From: Gammaproteobacteria bacterium
Lineage (GTDB): Bacteria; Pseudomonadota; Gammaproteobacteria; Pseudomonadales; Azotimanducaceae
NCBI GenBank assembly: GCA_026707045.1
Contig: JAPOXO010000108.1
Location: forward strand, 27,003-75,545
Length of the DNA: 48,543 bases
Reading direction: 5' to 3'
Shown here: positions 1 through 12,934 of the stretch, piece by piece
Layout of the letters: the number at the start of each line of letters is the position of its first letter
How positions within the stretch are numbered: position 1 is the stretch's first letter
Translations under genes and position numbers: made by a program
Notes under the pieces: generated by a model
Seen by the model: only the letters and a program-made list of their open reading frames with translations
What the model was told of the DNA's origin: nothing
Databases searched by the model: none

Positions 1-12
1 CACAAAGTCGCT

Positions 13-498
13 CTAAAACTTCAACAGTCTCATTTGGTAGGACTCAAGTTCAATCACGCCGACCGCATTGAGTCCCTTCATGTGTCCCGCGCATTCTCCA
101 GGATTGAAGATTGTCAATCCATCTTGCCGTTCCATACGAAGCAGGTGAGTGTGACCGTGCAGCGCAACATCGGTGTCTTGAATCAATGTTTCGGTCAAGT
201 CCCTCGGATCATGCACCACGACGACGCGTCTCGCACCAAAGTTTAGAAACAGTGGAGGTTGCCTAAACTGAAATTCGTTTCTCGCCGCAATGTGCTTTAG
301 TGAAGCGATTTCAACATCGTTGTTTCCAAAGACACCCGAAAAGGGTGCGTTCAGATCTGCAAACAGTTCAAGGGTCTTCGCTGTGGTAATGTCTCCTGTG
401 TGCACTACATGGTCGACCTTCGCCTCATTGAAGAGGCGAACAATCTCCAAAACGTTACGCATGTGATTGTGCGTATCGCTTACTACTCCGATTTTCAT
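13..498 (-). CDS. YfcE/MJ0936-family metallophosphoesterase
   Basis: Small calcineurin-like phosphodiesterase of the YfcE/MJ0936 family, about 161 residues from the chosen ATG at 498. Metal-ligand motifs are visible in the expected order: SDTHNH near the N terminus, HTGDIT, GNND and HGHTH. Family members are two-metal cytoplasmic phosphodiesterases whose natural substrates are poorly known. The reading frame extends nine residues upstream, but MKIGVVSDTH is the usual family N terminus, so I start there. It diverges from the TonB-dependent receptor gene and shows no link to it. Family assignment is firm; substrate is unknown. Confidence 0.9.
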   Translation of the reverse strand: MKIGVVSDTHNHMRNVLEIVRLFNEAKVDHVVHTGDITTAKTLELFADLNAPFSGVFGNNDVEIASLKHIAARNEFQFRQPPLFLNFGARRVVVVHDPRDLTETLIQDTDVALHGHTHLLRMERQDGLTIFNPGECAGHMKGLNAVGVIELESYQMRLLKF

Positions 499-795
499 TC
501 CTCCAGTGCCTCGAAGTGTGCACATACTGCTACTGAATTGGAGGCTCTATGTTGCTCGGAGACGAGGTTCGCTTCCATAGTTCGTTCATTATTGCCACGA
601 TATTTCTCCACGATTTCCGTGACAACGACCCTGTTTTCACTGGTGTCAGAGAATTCAGAACGTCACACCTTCATTTAAATTCATCATCTCTAAACTGCCG
701 TTTAGACTAGCAGAATCTCCCAAACAAGCGGTCATCAATACATTTCAAGAGAGTTGGGTTGATTCTCGTTGCGTCGAGTATTTTTCATCTAACAG

Positions 796-824
796 TTGAC
801 AATTACCTCAGAAAGTTTTATTAA
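796..824 (+). promoter_or_regulatory. Sigma-70-type promoter for the TonB-dependent receptor
   Basis: A perfect -35 hexamer TTGACA (796-801) is followed by a 17-base spacer and TATTAA (819-824). Transcription would start near 831, leaving a leader of about 90 bases before the ATG at 923. This is the best promoter match I found in the window. Confidence 0.7.
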
Positions 825-830
825 TGCACT

Positions 831-922
831 TGAAGTCTAAAGAACTGAATGGGTCCCTGGCGAATTGACAGGACTTTAGTCCTTTGCAAACTTGCCCTAA
901 GGGATAGATACAGGGGGTACAT
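831..922 (+). promoter_or_regulatory. Structured 5' leader of the receptor mRNA
   Basis: The predicted leader contains a 6-bp hairpin, AGGACT-TT-AGTCCT (870-883), and then CCCTAAGGG (895-903) just before the ribosome binding site AGGGGG (912-917). The CCCT segment could also pair with the G-rich binding site, so an alternative fold that hides it is possible. No known riboswitch class is recognised. Confidence 0.35.
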
Positions 923-3900
923 ATGCGACTACGATTAGGATCGCTTGCCGCGATTCTGGCTTCAGCCGCTCTCTTATGGACGGTGTCAGCGATGGCGCAA
1001 GAGGAGGAGAGCGATGAAGAGGAGGATGTTGATGCCGCCGCGGAGGCGGAAGACGAGGCGGAAGACGATGAAGAGATGGAGCAGATCTTTGTAACTGGAT
1101 CCGCCATTCGTCGAGACAATTTCGACACGCCTTCTCCGATGGACATCATCACCGAATTGGACATCCAGCTTGCTGGAACACCTGACTTGGGTGACATCAT
1201 TTTTGATCAAACCTATCAGGTAGGCGTGAACGCGAATGCTGCGCCGTTCGAGCACCCGACCGGACGTGCGGACGACCAGTCCGTGCAACGTGGCGTCGAA
1301 GTGTGGGCGAACATTCGCGGACTGGGCACCCGTGCCACCATGACGATGATGGACTCACACCGAGTTCCCGCCAACGTACAGGGCTACGGACCTGGAACGC
1401 GGCGTTCCGGTTCGGATGTCAATTCGTTGTATCCGGGAATTGCGATTGGTCGAGTCGAGACCATTCTTGATGGTGCTTCGGCTCTGTATGGATCCGAAGC
1501 CGTCTCTGGGGTCGTCAACGTGATTCCGCAAAAAAACTTCGACGGTTTCCGCGCCAACTATTCGACGCAACAGGCAATCGAAGGCGGCGCCCCATCCAAG
1601 TCGTTCGAACTCCTGGCCGGCGCGCAGAGCGAGAAGTCAAGCGCGATTTTCGCGATGGCAATTCGCGACGTAGACCGAATGGCCGCTACGGAACGACCTC
1701 AATTCATCATCTCGTCGGCCGGGTGGACTGGACAACTCCTGCCGACGTGGAGCGAAACAGGAACAAGCAATCCAGGCGATTGGAGAGTTCCATTCCGAGA
1801 CGAAAGTGGCGAGTTGGTACCGTGGACACCTTCCGGTTGGGCGCAGTTCCCGACGGGCACACCACTACCGGGATATCTCGCAAGTTCGCACCCTTGGTAT
1901 CTCTATCCAACGGGCGAACCGATTCGACTTCAAGTAGACGACTTTGACGGTGACGGGGTTCCCGACGTTGAGGAATTTACCTACGCTAGCACGACCATAG
2001 CGGACAACCAAGGCCGACTAAGAGTGCTTAGAAAAGTCGATCCGGGCTGTGGCTACGACTTCGGCGCTGGATACAACAGCTTGGACGGCGTGCGATTTGC
2101 CGCCGGGTCGGTCTCGGAATCCGGAGGTCTTGGATATACCGACACGACGAAGGTGGGCAACTTCCTAAACGAGTACCTGACAGGTAACGTCTGGGGACGC
2201 GAGACCCGTACCACCGGTGACGAGGCAGGGAGCCACGGATCGGAGTACGACTGTCGACGTATAACGACGGACTTTCAAGACATGCAGACTCCTCAGGATC
2301 GCGAGCAGGGCATGGCTTTCTTCGAGCACAGATTCAATGACTACGTTTCGTTCCACGGAGAGGTCACCATAAGCCGACTCGAAAGCCGGGGCCGACAAAA
2401 CGACTGGTTCGGGATCGACGAGTGGGGAGCCGCGGCAGGTGAAGACACGCTTAGTCCATTCATACCTTTCGCCATCGGTTCCAATCCGGGGAATCCCTTC
2501 CGAGCGTTTGCGGATGGATCAAACACCTGCGACTTGCTGCCGAACCTACCAGGTTGCGACGAGTTCACGAATGGCCGGTATTACACGTACATCGACGACA
2601 ACGGCACTCCGGACAATCCGGACGACGACATTGAAAGAACCATCGATATACACAACGAAACGGAACTTTCGTACATAGACGCAAATGGGAACGGGGTCTA
2701 CGACTATCTGCAAGAGGCCGGCGAGTGGCTTGTCTTCGCGCAGGATTCAAACGGCGACGGCCTTCCCGATCGCGACGTCGACGGCGACGGAGTTGCGGAA
2801 GACTGGGAACTCAACGACCGAACCGCACAGCACAGCGCTCAGAATCGAGTGCTACTGTTGCCGCTGGACAGCGATGTGGACGGCGATGGAATTCCCGACC
2901 GATTCGATCCGGACTCGCACGGAACGATAGGCGTGCGTCTGTTCGAGGACGCAAGACTGAATAACTTGGCTGCGCATCCAAAGCAGCCCTACGTTCATGA
3001 GAGCTATCCATGGCTGAACGGCGACATGAGCTTCGATCATCGTGCCCAGCTGAACGACATGCGGCTGCGACTTGGGGCCACTATCGAAATTCCAGATACG
3101 GAGTGGTACATCAATGCCGACTGGGTATGGGCTCTGAACAAGCGAGAGAATGACTGGCTAGAGCCGATTTGGCACTGGGCCGTCAACTCGTTTAGGTGTT
3201 CTGGCGGACGAGACGGCCAGCAGTGCTTCAATCCGTTCAGCACGAGTTGGTTGGCGTCGGATCCCGAGACGGGAGAGTTGCTGCCCCAGTGGCGCGACAA
3301 GGACGACCCGGCTTGGAACACGACGCTCGAGACAAGGAACGCGGGAATCATTCCGAGAACCGACCAGCGTCTCGTGGGATTTGTACTCGTGGACCTCATT
3401 GCATCGAACTCCAACCTGTTCAATCTACCGTGGAACAATGCGCCGGTGGGATTCGCAATTGGCATGCACCATCGAATCGAGTCGGAGGAATACCGACCCA
3501 ATCAGGTTGGTGCTGCATCATTGGGTTCCTCGATTGTGAGTTTCCAGTACACGGAGGAGCAAACCGACGCGGTGTTCACAGAATTCCGCTGGCCGATGAT
3601 TTCGAATCCGCGTTGGGGAGAAATGGAGGTTCAGACCGCAATCCGCTATGCAGAATTCACGGGACGAGGTTCCCTGTCAGCCACGGGTGAAACGGCGAAC
3701 TTCGATGTCACGATCCCCAAGTTTGCGATGAGCTACACGCCGAACGACAACCTGTCAATGCGCTTTAGCCGTACGGAAGGCTTTGTTCTGCCAGGAATGT
3801 TCCAGCTCTTCAATGTCACCGATGGTGAAGGTTCATCCGAGGAAACCATTCGCGACTACGTTTGCGACGGACTTCCGGAACTGCCTCAATGTGGAGGTGC

Positions 3901-5167
3901 CGGACCTGGAGGAGCAATCCAGGGTGTATTGGTAATACCAAACTCGGCAAATCGAAACTTGTCTGCGGAAGTTTCCGAACTGTGGAACACGGGCTTTACT
4001 TTCCGAATGTTCGACGACGACTTCAGAATGGACATCGACTATACGGATGTTGCGTTCAATGGAAGGGCGGAACGAATCGGAGCAGCCGCTGTGGTCAATC
4101 AGAACGAGGCGGGATTCGAGCAGTTCATCAAGGATCGATGCGGAATCGACACATTGATCGACTACGACAATGCGAACAAGTATCCGATCGACCAGTACCC
4201 CAACATTCCTCGTACGCCGCTGGACTACGTTGCCCAGACTCCGCTCGCGGAGCAGCAGTGTCGTCTTGCCGCCGTGGAGGAGTGGCTTTCGCAAGAGACC
4301 GCACTTTCGGGTGGAGTGATTGTCCGAGAAGACGGAAGACTTACACAGGCTTCGAACGCATGGATCAATCAGGGCGAATACCGAACTCGTACCCTTATAG
4401 CTCAGGGCGGGTACAGCTTTGATAGCGAAGAGATTCCGTTCATCGGTGGAAACTACGGCAACTTCAGCGCGAATTTCTCCGTGACGCGAATGCTTGAATT
4501 GAGCCTGACCAGATATGGGGCTGACTCCGGACATGGCTATGCAGGTCTCAATGTCGATGGTGTCGGAAACCGAAATGCTGTCGCATTTTGGGCAGGATCA
4601 GATCTTGCGACTCCTTTACCACCCACACCGGAATATCGAGTCAATCTTGGATTGCGTTGGTTCTCCGGACCGCATACGGCTCAACTTGGAGTTCGATGGC
4701 ACGACTCGCTGACAGATGTCAGTGCTGCCTACGACGAGATAACCGAATGGACCAAGTGCCGCGAGCGTCCCGATGGTTCCTACACACGGAACAACGGGGA
4801 CTTGTGCTCCGAAACGGAATACCTGACAGACCCCAACGGATGGAACAACAACGAGTTCAATGGAAGATCGGTGTTCAATGTTGATGACACGGACGACATT
4901 CCCAACTTCGTTTGGGATGAGTCGCAAGCCTGCATTGACCAGGACAGAAACCCCTATTGCAAGATCCCTTCGGGCGCGTATTGGGATTTCAGCTATACGT
5001 ATAGCCGTACCGGTTTCTTGGGCATGTCTTCGTTCTCGGTCAATGTTTCTATTCGAAACCTCCTTGATCACTATCCCACACCGATTCCATCAGGAGTTGG
5101 TTTTGAGGCGTATGTGGACAACGGAATGGGTCGATTGGGCTTTGCTCGAATATCGATGAACCTGTAG
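923..5167 (+). CDS. TonB-dependent outer-membrane receptor with acidic linker and calcium-loop-like repeats
   Basis: Large TonB-dependent receptor, 1414 residues, longer than the usual 700-1000. Signal peptide at residues 1-25 (ending AMA). Residues 27-53 are an acidic stretch, 19 of 27 Asp or Glu, followed by a TonB-box-like segment EQIFVTGS (53-60) and a plug domain with LDGASALYGSEAVSGVVN. The barrel ends with the typical RNLLDHYP motif, but the last residue is Leu rather than the usual aromatic. Within the predicted barrel, DxDxDG loops resembling thrombospondin type-3 or dockerin calcium sites occur at residues 340-348, 586-594, 608-627 and 649-664, probably in long extracellular loops. 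Many cysteines are present outside the signal peptide. Start ATG has AGGGGG upstream. It precedes two TPR/CRTAC1 pairs, suggesting a joint role. Substrate is unknown. Confidence 0.93.
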   Translation: MRLRLGSLAAILASAALLWTVSAMAQEEESDEEEDVDAAAEAEDEAEDDEEMEQIFVTGSAIRRDNFDTPSPMDIITELDIQLAGTPDLGDIIFDQTYQVGVNANAAPFEHPTGRADDQSVQRGVEVWANIRGLGTRATMTMMDSHRVPANVQGYGPGTRRSGSDVNSLYPGIAIGRVETILDGASALYGSEAVSGVVNVIPQKNFDGFRANYSTQQAIEGGAPSKSFELLAGAQSEKSSAIFAMAIRDVDRMAATERPQFIISSAGWTGQLLPTWSETGTSNPGDWRVPFRDESGELVPWTPSGWAQFPTGTPLPGYLASSHPWYLYPTGEPIRLQVDDFDGDGVPDVEEFTYASTTIADNQGRLRVLRKVDPGCGYDFGAGYNSLDGVRFAAGSVSESGGLGYTDTTKVGNFLNEYLTGNVWGRETRTTGDEAGSHGSEYDCRRITTDFQDMQTPQDREQGMAFFEHRFNDYVSFHGEVTISRLESRGRQNDWFGIDEWGAAAGEDTLSPFIPFAIGSNPGNPFRAFADGSNTCDLLPNLPGCDEFTNGRYYTYIDDNGTPDNPDDDIERTIDIHNETELSYIDANGNGVYDYLQEAGEWLVFAQDSNGDGLPDRDVDGDGVAEDWELNDRTAQHSAQNRVLLLPLDSDVDGDGIPDRFDPDSHGTIGVRLFEDARLNNLAAHPKQPYVHESYPWLNGDMSFDHRAQLNDMRLRLGATIEIPDTEWYINADWVWALNKRENDWLEPIWHWAVNSFRCSGGRDGQQCFNPFSTSWLASDPETGELLPQWRDKDDPAWNTTLETRNAGIIPRTDQRLVGFVLVDLIASNSNLFNLPWNNAPVGFAIGMHHRIESEEYRPNQVGAASLGSSIVSFQYTEEQTDAVFTEFRWPMISNPRWGEMEVQTAIRYAEFTGRGSLSATGETANFDVTIPKFAMSYTPNDNLSMRFSRTEGFVLPGMFQLFNVTDGEGSSEETIRDYVCDGLPELPQCGGAGPGGAIQGVLVIPNSANRNLSAEVSELWNTGFTFRMFDDDFRMDIDYTDVAFNGRAERIGAAAVVNQNEAGFEQFIKDRCGIDTLIDYDNANKYPIDQYPNIPRTPLDYVAQTPLAEQQCRLAAVEEWLSQETALSGGVIVREDGRLTQASNAWINQGEYRTRTLIAQGGYSFDSEEIPFIGGNYGNFSANFSVTRMLELSLTRYGADSGHGYAGLNVDGVGNRNAVAFWAGSDLATPLPPTPEYRVNLGLRWFSGPHTAQLGVRWHDSLTDVSAAYDEITEWTKCRERPDGSYTRNNGDLCSETEYLTDPNGWNNNEFNGRSVFNVDDTDDIPNFVWDESQACIDQDRNPYCKIPSGAYWDFSYTYSRTGFLGMSSFSVNVSIRNLLDHYPTPIPSGVGFEAYVDNGMGRLGFARISMNL

Positions 5168-5177
5168 CGTTAGATCA

Positions 5178-5198
5178 ATTCAGTCGAATAGACTGAAT
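5178..5198 (+). repeat. Inverted repeat just after the receptor stop codon
   Basis: Perfect 8-bp arms ATTCAGTC and GACTGAAT around a 5-base loop, 11 bases after the receptor stop. It sits immediately upstream of the main terminator and may protect the mRNA 3' end. No T-tract of its own. Confidence 0.5.
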
Positions 5199-5205
5199 CT
5201 TTTAA

Positions 5206-5245
5206 AGGTCCGGCACCGGACTGTTTCGGTGCCGGACTTTTTTAT
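5206..5245 (+). terminator. Rho-independent terminator of the receptor gene
   Basis: An 11-bp GC-rich stem, GTCCGGCACCG (5208-5218) with CGGTGCCGGAC (5227-5237), an 8-base loop and the T-rich run TTTTTTATT. It is a textbook intrinsic terminator. It separates the receptor transcript from the TPR/CRTAC1 genes, which therefore need their own promoter or read-through. Confidence 0.93.
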
Positions 5246-5288
5246 TCTTTGTATTTAATTCACATGAATCAGTCCAAGCTTATGCAAC

Positions 5289-5317
5289 TTGACCAATTCA
5301 ATCGTCGAACCGACAAT
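5289..5317 (+). promoter_or_regulatory. Weak candidate promoter for the first TPR/CRTAC1 pair
   Basis: TTGACC (5289-5294), 17-base spacer, GACAAT (5312-5317). The -35 is close to consensus but the -10 lacks its first T, so this is tentative. It lies after the terminator and before the TPR gene, where a promoter is expected. Confidence 0.25.
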
Positions 5318-5454
5318 TACGCATCTATTGGTGATTCGGTTGGGCTTGGGTTCAGTAGAGTTCTTGAGACTGCTGAGGTCCCGTCTTTTTCGCGCTAGAG
5401 TTGATCAGAGTCGTGACACATACAGATTGGTCCAAATGGACGGAACGGAGCGTA

Positions 5455-6867
5455 ATGTTTGCTCGGATTATGTTGCTGTGGTTGCTGTGCGCGATTGGCT
5501 GGTCATGCAGCAATCCGAATGATGAGTCCGACCTCATTGGCTTTGCGCACGTCCTAGATACGAGTCAGCTCGACTCAGAACTATCAGAAACAATTATTGA
5601 AACTATAGACCTCATAGAAAAGACACCGTACTCGGCTTCGTTACGTGGACGATTGGGGATGATCTACGAGGTAAACCACTTCCTCGAAGAGGCGAGAATC
5701 ATGTACGAACAAGCCTCGACTTTAGACCCAAGAGAATTTGCATGGTGGTATTTCGGTGCGTTGATTGACCAACAAAAAGGTGATATCGACAGGGCGCTGG
5801 AGAAAATTGACCAGGCAATTGACATCGATCATGGTTATGTACCGGTTCATCTGCATCGAGGAAATTGGTTGCTTCAACAGGACCGACTCTCGGAAGCTCT
5901 CGAAGCTTTTGGAGACGCGGCAGCACTTGGCGCAGGTTCTCCAGCAGCCGTGGGCATTGCACAGGTACACATTCGCAGAGAAGAATTCGAGGAAGCTGTG
6001 GACGTGTTGGTTCCATACTCTGAATCATTGCCCCATCCTCAAATCTGGAGGTTACTTGCTATCGCGTACGGCAGGCTAGGCATGGAATCTGAAGCAGAGG
6101 TTGCGAGAGCGCTAAGTAAAGAAACAACACCATTGCATTGGTTGGATCCTTTGCGTCAAAGACCCAACAGATACGTTCGTGGCTTCGGTAGACGCATTGT
6201 GTTCGCACAAAGCCTTTTGAGGGCGGATCGCTACAACGACGCGCTGCGCGAACTCGAGCGTTTGCTGGACATAGAGCCCAACGATGAAGCCTTGATCAGC
6301 AACCTGGCTGTGGTGTACGAGAAGACACAACAACCGGAAAAGGCAAAAGAGATTCTTGAAAGAGGAATTGATTTGATGCCGGAACAGTTTCGTTTCTATG
6401 TCCAGTTGGGAGATCTGATGTATCGAGGCGGACACAGTGAAGATGCTCTTGCTTTACTAACCCAAAGCACGAAAATCAACGAACGCAATCCCGGTGCCTA
6501 TGAACGATTGGGCTCAGTACTCATGCGACTGCAACGATTTGACGAGGCGATTGCGGCGTTCCACAACGCTATAGACTTCGGATATAGTGATGTGGCGGAA
6601 ATTCGTTTGCGCATTGGAACGATCTATGGATACCGGGAACAATGGCTGGAAGCAGTAAGCGAGTTTTCCCAAGTAGTTGAGTTGGATCCTGGAAACGCAA
6701 ATGGACATGTCTATCTTGCGCATGCGTTGATTGAAAAAGGTGAACTCGATCAAGCGGAAGCAGCATTGAAATGGGCTCGCAGGCTTAGGGTGAATCCTGA
6801 ACTGCTTCAACCACCCAGTCTACTCATCGAAGAACGGCGGAATCAGACAGATCCTAATTCGCCATGA
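5455..6867 (+). CDS. TPR-repeat lipoprotein, copy 1
   Basis: Tetratricopeptide-repeat protein, about 470 residues from ATG 5455. The start follows GGAG (5447-5450) and gives a short hydrophobic leader ending in Cys18-Ser19; upstream codons back to a TTG at 5401 would lengthen the leader unnaturally. The Cys context (GWSC) is a poor lipobox, so lipidation is likely rather than certain. The rest is a run of 34-residue helical repeats in two blocks around a central RYVRGFGRR segment. A clear paralogue lies at 8581, sharing RGRL.M.Y.VN, HPQI.RLLA.AY and GYR.QW. The stop overlaps the next ATG by four bases, so it is co-translated with the CRTAC1-like gene. TPRs usually bind proteins; the partner may be that neighbour. 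Specific function unknown. Confidence 0.85.
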   Translation: MFARIMLLWLLCAIGWSCSNPNDESDLIGFAHVLDTSQLDSELSETIIETIDLIEKTPYSASLRGRLGMIYEVNHFLEEARIMYEQASTLDPREFAWWYFGALIDQQKGDIDRALEKIDQAIDIDHGYVPVHLHRGNWLLQQDRLSEALEAFGDAAALGAGSPAAVGIAQVHIRREEFEEAVDVLVPYSESLPHPQIWRLLAIAYGRLGMESEAEVARALSKETTPLHWLDPLRQRPNRYVRGFGRRIVFAQSLLRADRYNDALRELERLLDIEPNDEALISNLAVVYEKTQQPEKAKEILERGIDLMPEQFRFYVQLGDLMYRGGHSEDALALLTQSTKINERNPGAYERLGSVLMRLQRFDEAIAAFHNAIDFGYSDVAEIRLRIGTIYGYREQWLEAVSEFSQVVELDPGNANGHVYLAHALIEKGELDQAEAALKWARRLRVNPELLQPPSLLIEERRNQTDPNSP

Positions 6868-8552
6868 GTCAATCCTACTTGAGCTTCATCCCAATGCTCT
6901 GGTCAGTCGTTTCTCTCTGGGGTTGCAGCGCCTCATTGGATCAATCGGAGAACGAACCTCGGATAGATGTTTGGTTCGTTGAAGAATCCGAATTAAGAGG
7001 GATTGACTTCGTTCATCAGTCGGGGCACCGTATAAAACACCTGTTACCAGAAATTACCGGTAGCGGAGTGGCATTGACCGATGTCAATGGAGACGGCTTG
7101 TTGGACATCTACCTTATTCAGAGTGGCTCACTTTTGGATGAGGACCGTGCGAATATAGGAGCTAACCAACTGTATTTGAACATAGGAGAAGGAAACTTTG
7201 AACTTCAGGAGGAAAGCGGCCTTGCAGACTACGGGTATGGGATGGGAGTGGCCGCTGGGGACTACGACAACGACGGAGACAACGACTTTTTCGTGACCAA
7301 CGTCGGCGAGAATAGGATGTTTAGGAATGACGGATCTGGTTCGTTCACAGATGTAACGAACGAGACTGGATTGGGTGACAATCTATGGGGCACTTCAGCG
7401 GCGTTTCTGGATCTGGACAAAGACGGGGACCTTGATCTCTACCACGCCAACTACCTTCACTGGACACTGGAAATCGAGTTGCCCTGCTTCGGAAGCGGAG
7501 TGGAGACGTATTGCCCACCTAACAACTACCAGTCTCCAGCAATAGATCGTATATTTCGAAACAATGGAGACGGGACGTTTACCGATGTCACCAGAAATGC
7601 TGGTATCACTACCGCATTTGGAAATGGGTTTGGTGTGATTGGAGCAGACTATGACGACAATGGATATGTGGATGTGTTTGTTGCCAACGACCTCACTGTT
7701 AATCAGTTGTGGATGAATCAAGGCGACTTTCGGTTTTTGAACGAAGCAATGTCTCGGGGCTCTGGAGTTGATGGATTTGGAACCATTAAAGCAGGCATGG
7801 GTGTTGCGTCGGCTGATCCAGATCAGGACGGTGATTTTGATATCTTGGTTGTGAACCTGACTGGTGAATCCGACTCTTTTTTTCGTAACGAAGGAACTCA
7901 CTTTACTGACTCCACAAGTGAAATCGGCCTGAGTGCACCAAGTCGGCGTTATACGAGATTTGGTGTTGTGATGGCTGATTTCGACAACGACGGCTGGTTG
8001 GACATCTATGAGGCGAACGGTGGCGTGAGCCCGGTAGATCTCGGAGCCGAGGACATTTATGCTGAACCCAACAGCCTGTATCGTGGTTTGGAAAACGGAC
8101 GCCTTGAGGAAGTTTTTCCACTGGGAGGAACAGTACAGTCTCTTGTACATACAAGTCGCGGGTTAGGAATAGGCGATTTAGACAACGATGGAGGATTGGA
8201 CTTGGTCGTTGTGAATCGCGACGCAAAAGCTTATGTGTTGATGAACCGTTTTTCCAGCCGTGGCAATTGGATTGCATTCTCGGTACTGTCGGAGCACGAG
8301 AGCGATGCAATTGGAGCGGTTGTCTCTCTTGTTCGCGACGGACGTCGTGTCTACGGGTCTGTTCAGCCGGAAGGTAGCTATCTCTCGTCCAACGATCCAC
8401 GAGTTCATTTTGGACTTGGTGCTGCAGCACGCGTGGAAGACGTGACAGTTTTGTGGCCCTCGGGCGAAGTTGAAACGTTCGGAGACTTCGCAAGCGGTGG
8501 TTACGAGGTCTTGAAGATGGGGAATGGAACTCCATCGGAATGGACGCGCTAA
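6864..8552 (+). CDS. CRTAC1-family FG-GAP/VCBS and UnbV-domain lipoprotein, copy 1
   Basis: 562-residue protein of the bacterial CRTAC1 type. A hydrophobic leader ends in LWGC with candidate lipidated Cys21 followed by Ser. The body holds FG-GAP/VCBS-like repeats with calcium-binding loops such as DVNGDGLLD, DYDNDGDND, DLDKDGDLD and DFDNDGWLD, predicting an integrin-alpha-like beta-propeller. The C-terminal ~90 residues carry the ASPIC/UnbV signature (SYLSSNDPRVHFGLG, VLWPSGEVE). The gene begins inside the upstream TPR stop (ATGA). Human CRTAC1 is extracellular, and bacterial members are usually secreted, but their biochemical role is not established. Ser after Cys suggests outer-membrane sorting. 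Paralogue at 10214. Confidence 0.9.
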   Translation: MSQSYLSFIPMLWSVVSLWGCSASLDQSENEPRIDVWFVEESELRGIDFVHQSGHRIKHLLPEITGSGVALTDVNGDGLLDIYLIQSGSLLDEDRANIGANQLYLNIGEGNFELQEESGLADYGYGMGVAAGDYDNDGDNDFFVTNVGENRMFRNDGSGSFTDVTNETGLGDNLWGTSAAFLDLDKDGDLDLYHANYLHWTLEIELPCFGSGVETYCPPNNYQSPAIDRIFRNNGDGTFTDVTRNAGITTAFGNGFGVIGADYDDNGYVDVFVANDLTVNQLWMNQGDFRFLNEAMSRGSGVDGFGTIKAGMGVASADPDQDGDFDILVVNLTGESDSFFRNEGTHFTDSTSEIGLSAPSRRYTRFGVVMADFDNDGWLDIYEANGGVSPVDLGAEDIYAEPNSLYRGLENGRLEEVFPLGGTVQSLVHTSRGLGIGDLDNDGGLDLVVVNRDAKAYVLMNRFSSRGNWIAFSVLSEHESDAIGAVVSLVRDGRRVYGSVQPEGSYLSSNDPRVHFGLGAAARVEDVTVLWPSGEVETFGDFASGGYEVLKMGNGTPSEWTR

Positions 8553-8580
8553 CTTAGATTTTTTGAGTGTGTCCTGAACT

Positions 8581-10113
8581 GTGAACAGTGCGTTTGAACA
8601 ATGTCGAAAAGTGGACGCTGGAAGGGCTTGTTATCAAAATGTCAAAGATCGAATCAGTCGCTCGGACAAGGAGAAAGTTGCAAGAGCGAAATCGATTACC
8701 AGAATCGTCATTGCAACACTGATTACGGCTCTTGCATGCATTTCATGTTCATCCCCAAGGGATTCCGTTGGGGTTGTGTTTCCCGAGACTGAAAATCCAA
8801 CTCTGCCTGACCTCACTGCAGTCGACGAGGAATTAGCAAGTTACATACGGACCCGACACGAGAAAGTAGAGCAATACCCAACATCTGGTTCCGAACGCGG
8901 ACGACTTGCTATGACCTATGACGTAAACAACTGGACTCGTCAGTCATTGCCGATTTACGAACAAGCTCAACAACTGGATCCCCACGAATTCATGTGGCCA
9001 TACTTCAGTGCACATCAGCACGCAAAATTGGGAGAATACGAACACGCTGTTGCAAAGCTCGAAGACGCGATCTCAATCGATCCGGAATATACGGCGGCTT
9101 GGTTGTGGTTGGGCTCTTGGCTACTGAGGTTGGATCAATTTGACGAAGCCGAGACGGCATTCGAAAGAGCTTTCTCAATAGACCAGAGTTTTTATGCCAT
9201 CATTGGAAAGGCTCGTGTAAAGCTCAGAAGCGGCAATTCGCAGGAAGCTATAGATTTGCTTGAACCTCTGCGAGTCAAAACATTGCATCCCCAAATCTTT
9301 CGGTTGCTTGCAAGCGCGTACGAAGATTTGAGACGCGCTAGTGAGGCGAAAGTTGCAAGAGCATTGGGTAAGCAAGATGCTGCGTTGAATTGGCCGGATT
9401 CAATAATGCTCCGTCGAGAAAAGCATATACGGGGATTCGGAGAGCGTTTGTCTCGAGCCCAACGATTGATTCAAGCCAATCGTCTTGAAGATTCGCTCAT
9501 AGAGCTTTCAGCATTGCGATTGAAATATGGAGAACGGCCTTCTTTGGTCAGTACATTGGCGTGGGTATATTCGTTGAAACGAGAAACGGATTTAGCTATT
9601 GAAACGCTGCAAATTGGAATAGAAGCAGATCCGAACCACCAGCCTTACTACACGCAATTAGGCGATTTGGTCAGCCTCACTGGCGCTTTAGGAACTGCAG
9701 AAGCACTCTTGCGGAAGAGTGTCGAGTTAAATTCATCTGATTCCGAAGCCTACTTGAGACTGGGGATTGTGTTAATGCAACAAGAACAGTTCGACGATGC
9801 AATAGATTCACTTAAAAATGTACTGGAACTTGGCTCTAGTTCCAATTCCATTTCAGAAGCTCACTTGCATCTGGGAACGATTGAAGGCTACAGGAAGCAG
9901 TGGGGCAAGGCTGCTGAGCACTTTAAGAAGACGATTGAACTGAATCCGCGCCACATCGCCGCACACGAAAGACTCTGCTATGTCTACATCGAAACGGGTC
10001 AGTTCGATGAACTGGAATCTGCTCTACGGTGGGCGAATCAATTGGCAATCCCGCCGGAAAATTTTGATCAGGTCATCGCGTACCGGGACGAAGTTCTTGC
10101 GCACTCCGAGTGA
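8581..10113 (+). CDS. TPR-repeat lipoprotein, copy 2
   Basis: Paralogue of the TPR protein at 5455, up to 510 residues. The frame opens at GTG 8581 without a good ribosome binding site; another GTG is at 8611. Either start leaves a charged N-terminal region of 30-40 residues before the hydrophobic segment (about 39-52), unusually long for a signal peptide. Lipidation could occur at Cys53 or at Cys56, which is followed by Ser; neither has an ideal lipobox. TPR units fill the rest, with the shared KHIRGFGER centre and a GYRKQW motif. It starts 28 bases after copy 1 of the CRTAC1 gene and is followed by copy 2. Function unknown; inferred to act with its CRTAC1 partner. Confidence 0.82.
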   Translation: MNSAFEQCRKVDAGRACYQNVKDRISRSDKEKVARAKSITRIVIATLITALACISCSSPRDSVGVVFPETENPTLPDLTAVDEELASYIRTRHEKVEQYPTSGSERGRLAMTYDVNNWTRQSLPIYEQAQQLDPHEFMWPYFSAHQHAKLGEYEHAVAKLEDAISIDPEYTAAWLWLGSWLLRLDQFDEAETAFERAFSIDQSFYAIIGKARVKLRSGNSQEAIDLLEPLRVKTLHPQIFRLLASAYEDLRRASEAKVARALGKQDAALNWPDSIMLRREKHIRGFGERLSRAQRLIQANRLEDSLIELSALRLKYGERPSLVSTLAWVYSLKRETDLAIETLQIGIEADPNHQPYYTQLGDLVSLTGALGTAEALLRKSVELNSSDSEAYLRLGIVLMQQEQFDDAIDSLKNVLELGSSSNSISEAHLHLGTIEGYRKQWGKAAEHFKKTIELNPRHIAAHERLCYVYIETGQFDELESALRWANQLAIPPENFDQVIAYRDEVLAHSE

Positions 10114-10213
10114 AACATAGGTGCTGATTCTGCGAGCATACGCGGCATTCATCCTTGGCCCTCGTTTTTCGGAAATCGTGCATTCCTAAGTAGGACTACT
10201 CTTCACAGTCGCC

Positions 10214-11887
10214 GTGTGCCCGAAATTACTTTGTCTCAGCGATTGGACAGCACGAGAAATTACGATCGTTCTTTTATTGGGCACAGGACTTGCCGCGTGT
10301 TCGACAGAAGATGGGGCTCCAAGCCAAAGTGAGGACGCATGGTTCATCGAGGAGTCATCTCAACGAGGAATCACTTTTGAGCATAACTCTGGTTTTCGCT
10401 CGATTCCGCTACTTCCCGAAATCAACGGTAGCGGAGTCGCTCTGGCTGATTTAAATGGGGATGGATGGTTAGACATCTATTTCGTACAAAGCGGCAGCCT
10501 CTACGAAGAGGAAGCAGGACAGTGGCACAACGAACTCTACTTCAACATGCATAACGGAAAATTCGAAAAGGCATCGATGACGAGCGGCGCGGGCGATTCC
10601 GGTTACGGCATGGGAGTGGCGGCGGGAGACTACGACAACGACGGAGACGTAGACCTGTACGTAACCAACGTTGGGCGAAATGTGTTGTTAGCCAACGACG
10701 GAACTGGTTCATTTCGTGATGTGTCAGCAGAGGCTGGTGTGGATGACTCCTCCTTTGGTGCGTCTGCAACATTTCAAGATTTTGACCAGGACGGCCATCT
10801 TGACTTGTTTGTTGCCAACTATGTCGACTGGACTAGAAACGCTGAAGTGGAGTGCTACGAAGGTGGTATTCGTTCCTATTGTCCACCAGCCCGATACGAT
10901 GCGCCCGCAGCCAACCTTATATACAAGAATAACGGTGACGGAACATTCAGCAATTCTTCAGAAGAAAGTGGAATTGGTGCGGAATTTGGCAATAGTTTCG
11001 GCGTGGTCAGCGCCGACTTCAATTCAGATGGCCTGATCGATTTGTATGTAGCCAATGACCGCACTCCCAATGAGCTCTGGATTAACCAAGGCGGGTTCAA
11101 ATTTGCAAACTTAGCCGAATCTTACGGAGTTGCGGCTGATGGTTTTGGTCAAGTCAAAGCCGGGATGGGAGTTACAACCAATGACTATGATCGGGATGGA
11201 GATTTTGACCTGCTGATTGTGAATCTAGTTGGAGAGACCGATACGTTCTTTCGAAACGACGGTACACACTTTGTGGATATCACTAACCAAACTGGATTGA
11301 ATACAAAAACCACCCGATATACACGATGGGGAGTCATTCTCCAGGACTTCAACAATGATGGATTGTTGGATCTGTATGTGGCAAACGGTGGAGTCTATCC
11401 CAGCGACTTGCGTTCGGGAGACATCTATGCTGAGCAAAACATACTTTTTGATGGTCTGTCGGATGGTTCATTTGTGCACGCACGAAAAGGGCCCGGATGG
11501 ATGCATACGAGCCGTGGATGCGCCGTGGGGGACGTAGACAACGACGGAGGATTGGACCTTGTGGTGGTAAACCGAGATGCACCTCCGTATTTGATGCTCA
11601 ACAGTGTCGAGAAACGAGGAAATTGGCTATCACTCGAGCTTAGAAATCAAATGGGAAGGAGTGCGCTGGGTGCAGTACTTTCCTATGCCATCGGTGGACA
11701 GACTCATTATTCAATGGTTTCTCGAGATGGGAGCTTCATGTCGTCGAGCGACGCACGAGTACATCTGGGACTCGGTGAAGAAAAACTCATTACAGAATTG
11801 GAAGTCCGTTGGTCCAACGGTCAAATTGAGCATCTCGGAGACTTTGCAGCTAACCAGTTCTTAGTGCTGCACCAGGACGAAGACTGA
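10214..11887 (+). CDS. CRTAC1-family FG-GAP/VCBS and UnbV-domain lipoprotein, copy 2
   Basis: 557-residue paralogue of the protein at 6864. It has the clearest lipobox of the four, LAAC with Cys29 followed by Ser30. Calcium-loop repeats include DLNGDGWLD, DYDNDGDVD, DFDQDGHLD, DYDRDGDFD and DFNNDGLLD. The C terminus has the UnbV signature (SFMSSSDARVHLGLG, VRWSNGQIE). Unlike the first pair, it is 100 bases away from its TPR partner and starts with GTG, so translational coupling is lost. A stretch of identical DNA (7260-7280 and 10628-10648), encoding DYDNDGD, is consistent with paralogy, though overall the copies have diverged well. It ends convergently with the flavoprotein gene, 24 bases away. 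Confidence 0.9.
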   Translation: MCPKLLCLSDWTAREITIVLLLGTGLAACSTEDGAPSQSEDAWFIEESSQRGITFEHNSGFRSIPLLPEINGSGVALADLNGDGWLDIYFVQSGSLYEEEAGQWHNELYFNMHNGKFEKASMTSGAGDSGYGMGVAAGDYDNDGDVDLYVTNVGRNVLLANDGTGSFRDVSAEAGVDDSSFGASATFQDFDQDGHLDLFVANYVDWTRNAEVECYEGGIRSYCPPARYDAPAANLIYKNNGDGTFSNSSEESGIGAEFGNSFGVVSADFNSDGLIDLYVANDRTPNELWINQGGFKFANLAESYGVAADGFGQVKAGMGVTTNDYDRDGDFDLLIVNLVGETDTFFRNDGTHFVDITNQTGLNTKTTRYTRWGVILQDFNNDGLLDLYVANGGVYPSDLRSGDIYAEQNILFDGLSDGSFVHARKGPGWMHTSRGCAVGDVDNDGGLDLVVVNRDAPPYLMLNSVEKRGNWLSLELRNQMGRSALGAVLSYAIGGQTHYSMVSRDGSFMSSSDARVHLGLGEEKLITELEVRWSNGQIEHLGDFAANQFLVLHQDED

Positions 11888-11911
11888 TTTGCGTTCTTGG
11901 TTTGTTAGCGC

Positions 11912-12934
11912 TTAATTTACCCCAAGCCGTTCTTGCAGCAGAGGACTTGTAGTGGTGTATTGAAGATGAACTTTCTCTCCAGGATTGAGTCGTTCCTTGA
12001 TAGCGAATGCGGCCAGAGCGGCTTCATGGAATCCCGATAGGATCAGTTTCTTTTTTCCTGGATATACCGCAATATCTCCAATTGCGTAGATGCCTGGAAT
12101 GTTCGTCTCAAATTTTTCCGTATCTGTAATCACCTGATTGCGCTGAAGTTCCAAATCCCAATTCGCTATTGGGCCAAGTCGAGGAGACAGTCCGAAAAAC
12201 ACCAACAAATAATCGACATCCAAGCGCTCGACATCTCGATTCGGCTGCGTTATGTGAACTTCGGTCATGCGACCGTCTCTTTCGGTCAGTTCGGTAGCAT
12301 TACCTACCATAAAGCGCATCTTTTCGTCAGAGACAAATTGCTTCATCTTTTCGACTGTGGCGTCTGCCGCGCGAAACTTCTCGCTCCGATGAACCAAAGT
12401 CAAGGAACGCACTTTCTCGACTAATTCGACTGTCCAGTCAAGGGCAGAGTCTCCTCCTCCGAGTACGACAACATTTTTGTCCTTGAGCAGTGATTTGTCC
12501 TGAATGCGGTAAAAGATCTGCTTGTCCACGAAACGATCAATGCCTTGTACCCTCAAGGGCTGTGGTTGGAATGAACCGACACCTCCGGCGATGACGACTG
12601 CTGACGAATTGATTTCGAGACCTTTGCTTGTGCGAATATTGAACGTGTTGCCTTCGGTGGGATTGAGTTCCGTCACTTGCTGGTCGAGATGAAAGACTGT
12701 TTCGAACGGTTTAATTTGTTCAAGCAATCGATCCACCAGCTCCAATGCGGAACAGACAGGGATACCCGGAATGTCGTAGATGGGCTTATCGGGATAGAGT
12801 TCGTAACACTGACCACCGACACTCGGTAAAGCGTCCACGACATGAGCGTTCATACCTAGCAGGCCAAGCTCGAAAACTTGGAAAATTCCACACGGCCCCG
12901 CGCCCACAATTACTGCATCAGTCGTTGCTTGCAT
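11912..12934 (-). CDS. Ferredoxin-NADP+ reductase, thioredoxin-reductase-like (YumC type)
   Basis: 340-residue FAD/NAD(P)H flavoprotein. The FAD-binding GAGPCG motif is at residues 11-16, followed by GGQCYELYPDKPIYDIPG, typical of YumC-type ferredoxin/flavodoxin-NADP+ reductases. A second nucleotide-binding motif, VVVLGGGDSALDW, lies in the middle and IYAIGDIA closes the FAD domain. The CxxC redox pair of true thioredoxin reductases is missing, supporting the FNR-like assignment. It is 21 bases downstream of gatB in the same direction and is probably cotranscribed, although no functional link is evident. Electron partner is unknown. Confidence 0.88.
   Translation of the reverse strand: MQATTDAVIVGAGPCGIFQVFELGLLGMNAHVVDALPSVGGQCYELYPDKPIYDIPGIPVCSALELVDRLLEQIKPFETVFHLDQQVTELNPTEGNTFNIRTSKGLEINSSAVVIAGGVGSFQPQPLRVQGIDRFVDKQIFYRIQDKSLLKDKNVVVLGGGDSALDWTVELVEKVRSLTLVHRSEKFRAADATVEKMKQFVSDEKMRFMVGNATELTERDGRMTEVHITQPNRDVERLDVDYLLVFFGLSPRLGPIANWDLELQRNQVITDTEKFETNIPGIYAIGDIAVYPGKKKLILSGFHEAALAAFAIKERLNPGEKVHLQYTTTSPLLQERLGVN

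Follow-up and report, generated by a model that had tools for sequence, protein, structure and literature searches.

We analyzed a 48,543-nucleotide stretch of a gammaproteobacterial genome of the family Azotimanducaceae (assembly GCA_026707045.1, contig JAPOXO010000108.1, positions 27,003 to 75,545; hereafter the window), in which the gene for a giant TonB-dependent receptor (TBDR) is followed by 2 pairs of smaller genes, each encoding a tetratricopeptide-repeat (TPR) protein and a CRTAC1-like protein, related to human CRTAC1, with FG-GAP repeats and a UnbV_ASPIC domain (CRT). The 5 genes (TBDR, TPR1, CRT1, TPR2, and CRT2) lie on the + strand and run in 1 direction throughout positions 923 to 11887 (open reading frame, ORF, listing and Pfam). 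We tentatively place first the explanation that the receptor is a TonB-dependent importer assisted by TPR and CRTAC1-like lipoproteins, a system that would resemble SusCD and TbpAB in its working while being a member of neither. This explanation is based on gene content, a conserved neighborhood, partly congruent trees, enriched lipoboxes, the predicted fold of CRT1, and the sidedness of the modeled receptor loops.

Loci for comparison were selected by the receptor alone (E ≤ 1e-60 to the window receptor, neighbors ignored) from 58 relatives (11 loci in 10 genomes) and 120 genomes of the family (16 genomes, 10 of them new with 13 loci), giving 24 loci; receptors broken over 2 contigs in G016, G069, and G092 were presumably single and counted as 1 locus each, and the count of 22 given next is independent of this pairing. 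A CRT gene was identified at most 2.6 kb from the receptor in 22 of the 24 loci. In the remaining 2 (L041 and L191), the contig edge falls just past the receptor, and the frame running off the contig in L041 matches U1, an accessory gene that other loci carry at this place (E 1.4e-6). A pair-type TPR gene was present in 19 of the 22 CRT-linked loci, with the CRT gene directly following the receptor in L182, L190, and L193. An earlier note on this DNA, made from the sequence alone, had named co-occurrence of the receptor clade with such genes across genomes as its check, and these counts bear it out. Because the loci are interrelated and come from a single family, they do not count as 24 independent events; several deep lineages are nevertheless present in the receptor tree, and linkage persists across them and through changes of orientation and gene order.

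In the window's own genome, only 1 of 28 Plug-domain genes, the window receptor, is near a CRT gene, which together with the 22 linked and 2 contig-cut loci rules out a chance neighborhood. The reverse statement, that all CRTs belong to receptors, was rejected: this genome (3.34 Mb) has 5 UnbV sites, 2 of them near a receptor, and the other 3 lie elsewhere, with no receptor in the stretches fetched around them. A conserved neighborhood whose members do not interact functionally would accord with the hairpin that sits between the receptor and lipoprotein genes and with the receptor-free occurrence of CRTs and pairs described below, but it sits badly with linkage in every locus that is not cut off and with its survival in deep receptor lineages and rearranged gene orders, and we regard it as very improbable.

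The receptor gene (positions 923 to 5167, +) encodes 1414 aa, with the Plug (32.6 bits; cut-off 23.9) and TonB_dep_Rec_b-barrel (40.6 bits; cut-off 27) families of Pfam both above cut-off. A TonB-box-like segment, EQIFVTGS, lies past an acidic stretch at residues 53-60 (positions 1079 to 1102, +, placed from the translation); by comparison with proteobacterial TBDRs in general, it is probably the TonB box. Homologues formed 163 protein clusters at E ≤ 1e-30 among 7990 candidates scored. Elsewhere in the class, the clade was not detected in any of the 368 further genomes drawn, with few candidates scored per genome. Residues 586-665 (positions 2678 to 2917, +) form a Ca-binding-like cassette of TSP3/EF-hand-like DxDxDG motifs. 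At least 3 such motifs within 150 aa were found in 119 of the 120 homologues listed (of the 163), and at least 2 in all 120, compared with 0 of 1000 shuffles; receptors outside the clade that lie near CRTs had 0 or 1 motif, and the C-terminal clade fragments L186 and L193 had none either. Many Cys residues are also conserved across the clade.

A model of residues 215-1414 (plug omitted, mean pLDDT 77.5) gave a barrel of 22 strands by hand count, including a 3-residue first strand and excluding short strands within loops. Its best fold matches were FecA, TbpA, and SusC-type receptors, at low TM-scores of about 0.3 by query length. The long loops fall on 1 side of the modeled barrel, with the cassette inside a loop of 211 residues, and in standard TBDR topology the long-loop side faces outward.

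The receptor is unusually conserved among close relatives. Identity between the window and 2 relatives, G006 and the genus mate G014, was 94% and 88% for the receptor, compared with 77% and 58% for GatB, 84% and 71% and 70% and 63% for 2 other flanking genes, 71% and 57% for another receptor of the window genome, and 71-78% and 53-69% for TPR1, CRT1, TPR2, and CRT2. Against G014, conservation was 0.89 and 0.90 in the 2 longest receptor loops, 0.91 in the strands, and 0.85 in the other loops; against the more distant G036, it was 0.40 and 0.51 in the 2 longest loops and 0.51 in the strands. Silent sites of the receptor are near-saturated (pS 0.67 for G006 and 0.76 for G014), being in both cases the lowest of the 8 genes compared and thus slightly less saturated than the neighbors, which makes selection likelier than recent transfer as the source of the conservation; recent transfer is unlikely. 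With 88% identity for the receptor and 58% for GatB in the same genus mate, the conservation points to an invariant ligand.

The first lipoprotein-like pair consists of TPR1 (positions 5401 to 6867, +, 488 aa as listed, with the ATG at 5455 judged by eye the likelier start than 5401) and CRT1 (positions 6864 to 8552, +, 562 aa), the start of CRT1 sharing 4 bases with the stop of TPR1. The second pair comprises TPR2 (positions 8581 to 10113, +) and CRT2 (positions 10214 to 11887, +). CRT1 and CRT2 are above the Pfam cut-off for FG-GAP_3, FG-GAP, and UnbV_ASPIC, and the Pfam matches of TPR1 and TPR2 are TPR families. TPR1 and TPR2 are 39% identical over 459 residues and CRT1 and CRT2 53% over 519, confirming the 2 paralogous pairs behind a receptor, all in the same direction, that the earlier note had described. 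CRT1 and CRT2 form sister clades in the CRT tree, each with members from the window, G006, and G014 only, so the pair was duplicated within the window's sub-lineage.

Lipoprotein-like leaders had been claimed for all 4 smaller products. The claim is convincing for CRT2 (lipobox GLAAC) and acceptable for CRT1 (LWGC, outside the regular expression used), whereas TPR1 (GWSC) and TPR2 (CISC) are weak when judged singly. Both families are nonetheless enriched in relatives, where a relaxed lipobox expression was matched by 47 of 55 CRTs, by 41 of 51 TPRs, and, among the remaining ORFs of these loci, by 56 of 430, and the lipobox Cys is invariant in a 12-row CRT alignment of the window and its relatives. 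The presence of a Cys anywhere close to the leader (54 of 55 CRTs and 50 of 51 TPRs, but also 265 of 430 other ORFs) was uninformative and was dropped in favor of the lipobox count.

The CRT1 model (pLDDT 92, pTM 0.91; the only CRT modeled) has murine CRTAC1 (9etn) as its best match in the Protein Data Bank (E 1.1e-30, TM-score 0.72/0.73), which is also the sole solved relative that the sequence search turned up. Much less significant fold matches followed, namely GlcNAc lectins, aldos-2-ulose dehydratase, KICSTOR, and integrin alpha propellers. The lectins and integrins as next folds after CRTAC1, together with the Ca-type motifs present in both receptor and CRT, would agree with a Ca-dependent layer for surface adhesion or shielding, whose propeller lipoproteins would bind partners or guard the receptor instead of feeding it; the receptor, long loops included, is however conserved and not diversifying among close relatives, and it keeps its TonB-box-like segment, so that we give such a layer little credence.

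Receptor and CRT trees are congruent in part. The window genus contains 2 distant receptor lineages with a mean identity of 45% between them, and its CRTs split likewise (49%). Both trees unite L181 with L183 and L184. In the receptor tree, the partner of L041 is L180; the CRT tree places L173, possibly the second half of the broken L041 locus, together with L180 and L079. With 1 CRT picked per locus, receptor and CRT distances correlated across 18 loci (Mantel r 0.88, a value reached in 0 of 5000 permutations) and across 10 representatives (Mantel r 0.63, reached in 3 of 5000).

A terminator-like hairpin with a T run was identified in the gap between the receptor and TPR1 (positions 5204 to 5241, +, by hairpin scan and fold). 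It has 17 pairs, and the next best of the 11 terminator-like sites in positions 500 to 12100 has 9; the number of sites equals that in shuffles (mean 11.5), so only the strength of this hairpin stands out. A hairpin with a T run follows the clade receptor gene in 19 of the 21 loci with enough downstream sequence; the figure was 1 of 36 for TPR genes, which mostly have coding sequence downstream, 1 of 30 for CRT genes, and 13 of 435 for shuffles. A single uninterrupted operon is therefore unlikely.

The converse scan, from the CRT side, searched 1 genome per species with a CRT alignment, and the best 80 of 563 confirmed places were inspected, with nearby receptors sought by local profiles that could miss divergent ones and phyla read from record titles. 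A receptor was found in 3 of 5 loci of Gammaproteobacteria, the other 2 being contigs of 3-4 kb, and in 18 of 29 loci of Acidobacteriota, where it was Oar-type (by Pfam, OMP_b-brl_4 in 8 of 8 checked and CarboxypepD_reg in 7 of 8, the eighth being cut at its start) and lay up to 7.5 kb from the CRT, a distance at which chance plays some part. No TBDR was detected by these profiles in the 2 loci of Gemmatimonadota or the 1 of Verrucomicrobiota. Among stretches of at least 14 kb, a receptor was present in 3 of 3 from Gammaproteobacteria, 13 of 17 from Acidobacteriota, 0 of 11 from Planctomycetota, and 0 of 17 from Poribacteria. In 62 of the 80 loci, the CRT had a TPR gene nearby.

Among 52 gammaproteobacterial rows of the CRT tree, a set biased because many rows were fetched owing to a receptor, 37 had a receptor within 10 kb, 3 (L044, L046, and L052) had one in an adjoining fetched stretch, and 3 (L055, L079, and L173) were cut by contig ends. 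In other Gammaproteobacteria, this pair type also adjoins receptors of other clades (L057, L058, L080, and L083). Since the pair occurs with no receptor detected in Planctomycetota and Poribacteria and accompanies other-clade receptors in Gammaproteobacteria and Acidobacteriota, it is probably an older module that predates its link to this receptor, different receptors having become linked to it.

The CRT family also occurs in other arrangements. One protein (L065:2075-5371) combines TPR, FG-GAP, and UnbV, a natural fusion of the 2 partner types. A second CRT subtype (L007:9175-13217 in the window's own genome and L062-L070) adjoins a membrane c554/MtrC-like cytochrome with TPRs, this assignment resting on Pfam for L007 and L065 and on similar leaders for the rest, and the CRT is followed by a receptor of about 905 aa in 5 genus mates. 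Contigs 39 and 23 of the same genome (L006:7625-11440 and L008:6518-10303) encode proteins of 1271 and 1261 aa with FG-GAP and UnbV, a Flg_new_2 repeat, and a vanadium-chloroperoxidase-like (VCPO_2nd) C-terminal region. L161-L164 and L169 form a clade of solitary lipoprotein-like CRTs, with neither TPR nor receptor found near, the CRT of L163 adjoining a DUF3604 gene.

Several observations weigh against the importer explanation. The terminator-like hairpin parts the receptor from the lipoprotein genes, so that the receptor gene is probably a separate unit or reaches them by read-through. The receptor (88-94% identity) is far more conserved than the lipoproteins (53-78%), so tight co-variation is not seen. 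The distance correlation, obtained with no species-tree control, indicates co-inheritance and not co-adaptation. The trees also disagree in places. The receptor of L179 lies closest to the window lineage (100/98), whereas the CRT of L179 is placed with L180 at weak support (80/75); and the receptor tree unites the genus's second lineage with L042 and others, which the CRT tree does not. In a cross-phylum alignment with mechanically picked starts, the lipobox column is Cys in only 24 of 38 CRT rows. No Rfam riboswitch match at E ≤ 1 was found in positions 1 to 12500 as a clue to the substrate. In the converse scan, no TBDR was detected in 20 loci of Planctomycetota or 23 of Poribacteria, and 9 of the 52 gammaproteobacterial CRT rows had no receptor in the fetched stretch (L056, L059, L060, L161-L164, L169, and L172, with 1 flank short in L059, L060, and L172).

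The earlier note had held that the association would be chance if such pairs usually occur without a TBDR and no complex is predicted; the first half of this holds for the loci from Planctomycetota and Poribacteria, in which no TBDR was detected. The note's proposal, that the lipoproteins may form a surface or periplasmic assembly serving the receptor, gains from clade-wide linkage, partly agreeing trees, and lipobox enrichment, and loses from the pairs without a detected receptor in other phyla and from the hairpin, which speaks against 1 uninterrupted transcript. The same pairs in other phyla, and the CRT subtype beside c554/MtrC-like cytochromes with TPRs, would suit TPR-CRT pairs that are scaffolds at the periplasmic face, receiving or processing cargo past the receptor or serving several envelope processes with the receptor as 1 client. 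We consider this unlikely but a serious contender; against it stand the link of the receptor clade to CRT wherever the locus is visible and, in the model, the elaboration of the receptor on its long-loop side.

TPR and CRT could instead help to assemble or stabilize a receptor that is unusually large, rich in cysteine, and equipped with a Ca cassette. The many conserved Cys residues and very long loops of the clade speak for such a role, as does the involvement of TPR lipoproteins such as BamD in outer-membrane protein assembly; several loci with 2 or more pairs to a single receptor, and the presence of this pair type next to receptors that lack the cassette, speak against it, and we hold it to be improbable.

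Under the importer explanation, we infer a physical complex, an outer-face location, ligand binding, and import. The 22-strand barrel, with its long loops and the Ca-binding-like cassette in 1 of them, would form an elaborate outer vestibule; the TPR lipoprotein, as a helical scaffold, and the CRTAC1-like lipoprotein, as an FG-GAP beta-propeller with UnbV, would pair up and work with the receptor, most likely at the outer face, where the pair would bind or hand over 1 conserved ligand, and TonB would drive its import. A more specific and rather doubtful version is a distinct importer class, in which the clade-defining Ca loop of the hyperconserved receptor docks the integrin-like FG-GAP/UnbV propeller lipoprotein via calcium, the TPR lipoprotein is the scaffold, and, in many relatives, extra secreted Sel1-like proteins with TonB-box-like segments are perhaps pulled by TonB too.

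Accessory genes were observed at several of these loci. U1 (about 255 aa, Cys-rich) comes directly after the receptor in 8 loci (L179, L180, L181, L183-L186, and L189) and none of the 3 copies scanned reached a Pfam cut-off. U2 (about 240 aa), with weak Sel1 matches below cut-off, occurs in many clade loci and, in the window genome, on other contigs. Sel1-like, secreted-looking proteins of about 240 aa are encoded at L043:3575-5912 (3 genes) and, in the window's own genome, at L196:648-3243 (3 genes) and L197:162-1013. These Sel1-like proteins carry TonB-box-like segments past the leader (EELIVRG, EHLIVTG), with a strict pattern in 14 of 25 and near variants by eye in most others; a TonB box on proteins that are not receptors would be unusual. 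Questin-oxidase-like, beta-lactamase-like, and Rieske (LigXa-like) genes beside the locus in genus mates (Pfam, 1 genome) were not used to deduce a substrate, since they are not at the window locus.

Compared with known systems, the locus shares with SusC/SusD (RagA/RagB) a large-loop TBDR and an outer-membrane lipoprotein partner, which is predicted here, and SusD has TPR-like helices. However, the receptor scored 16.5 bits against the SusC/RagA model TIGR04056 (cut-off 368.25), the 25 best of 27 and of 26 matches for TPR1 and TPR2 were repeat families with no SusD family, and the window has an extra propeller lipoprotein and a hairpin between the genes. TbpA/TbpB likewise combines a large-loop TBDR with a lipoprotein partner, and TbpA is among the barrel's best fold matches (TM-score 0.33-0.35 by query length), but the receptor scored 16 bits against TIGR01786, TonB-hemlactrns (cut-off 323.75), and the small proteins are TPR and FG-GAP/UnbV proteins, TbpB not being among the Pfam families shown for the 4. 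As the locus matches neither system in these comparisons, it at most works like them.

With CRTAC1/UnbV_ASPIC proteins, both CRTs share domains and CRT1 the fold (TM-score 0.72 to 9etn), whereas those of the window are bacterial, lipoprotein-like, and paired with TPR proteins. Bacterial UnbV/CRTAC1 proteins are named without a role in the retrieved portions of 3 papers (PMC3174227, PMC12758564, and PMC3909097). A CRTAC1-family FG-GAP gene adjoins hydrazine-synthase-like subunits in the portion of PMC12758564 retrieved, which is alike in being a bacterial CRTAC1-family gene with conserved neighbors and unlike in that the neighbors described there are homologues of heme-protein subunits, with no TonB receptor. 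In the CC-licensed PMC literature (subscription papers and preprints lying outside this scope), nothing was found on CRTAC1 together with TBDRs, and the retrieved text mentioning ASPIC, UnbV, and TonB was at most a bare listing of names. The receptor clade, with a CRT gene beside it wherever the contig permits, is a testable setting in which the genetics of a single locus could assign the family's role, and its gene content suggests an uptake machine that may work like SusCD and TbpAB and whose parts have not been described together.

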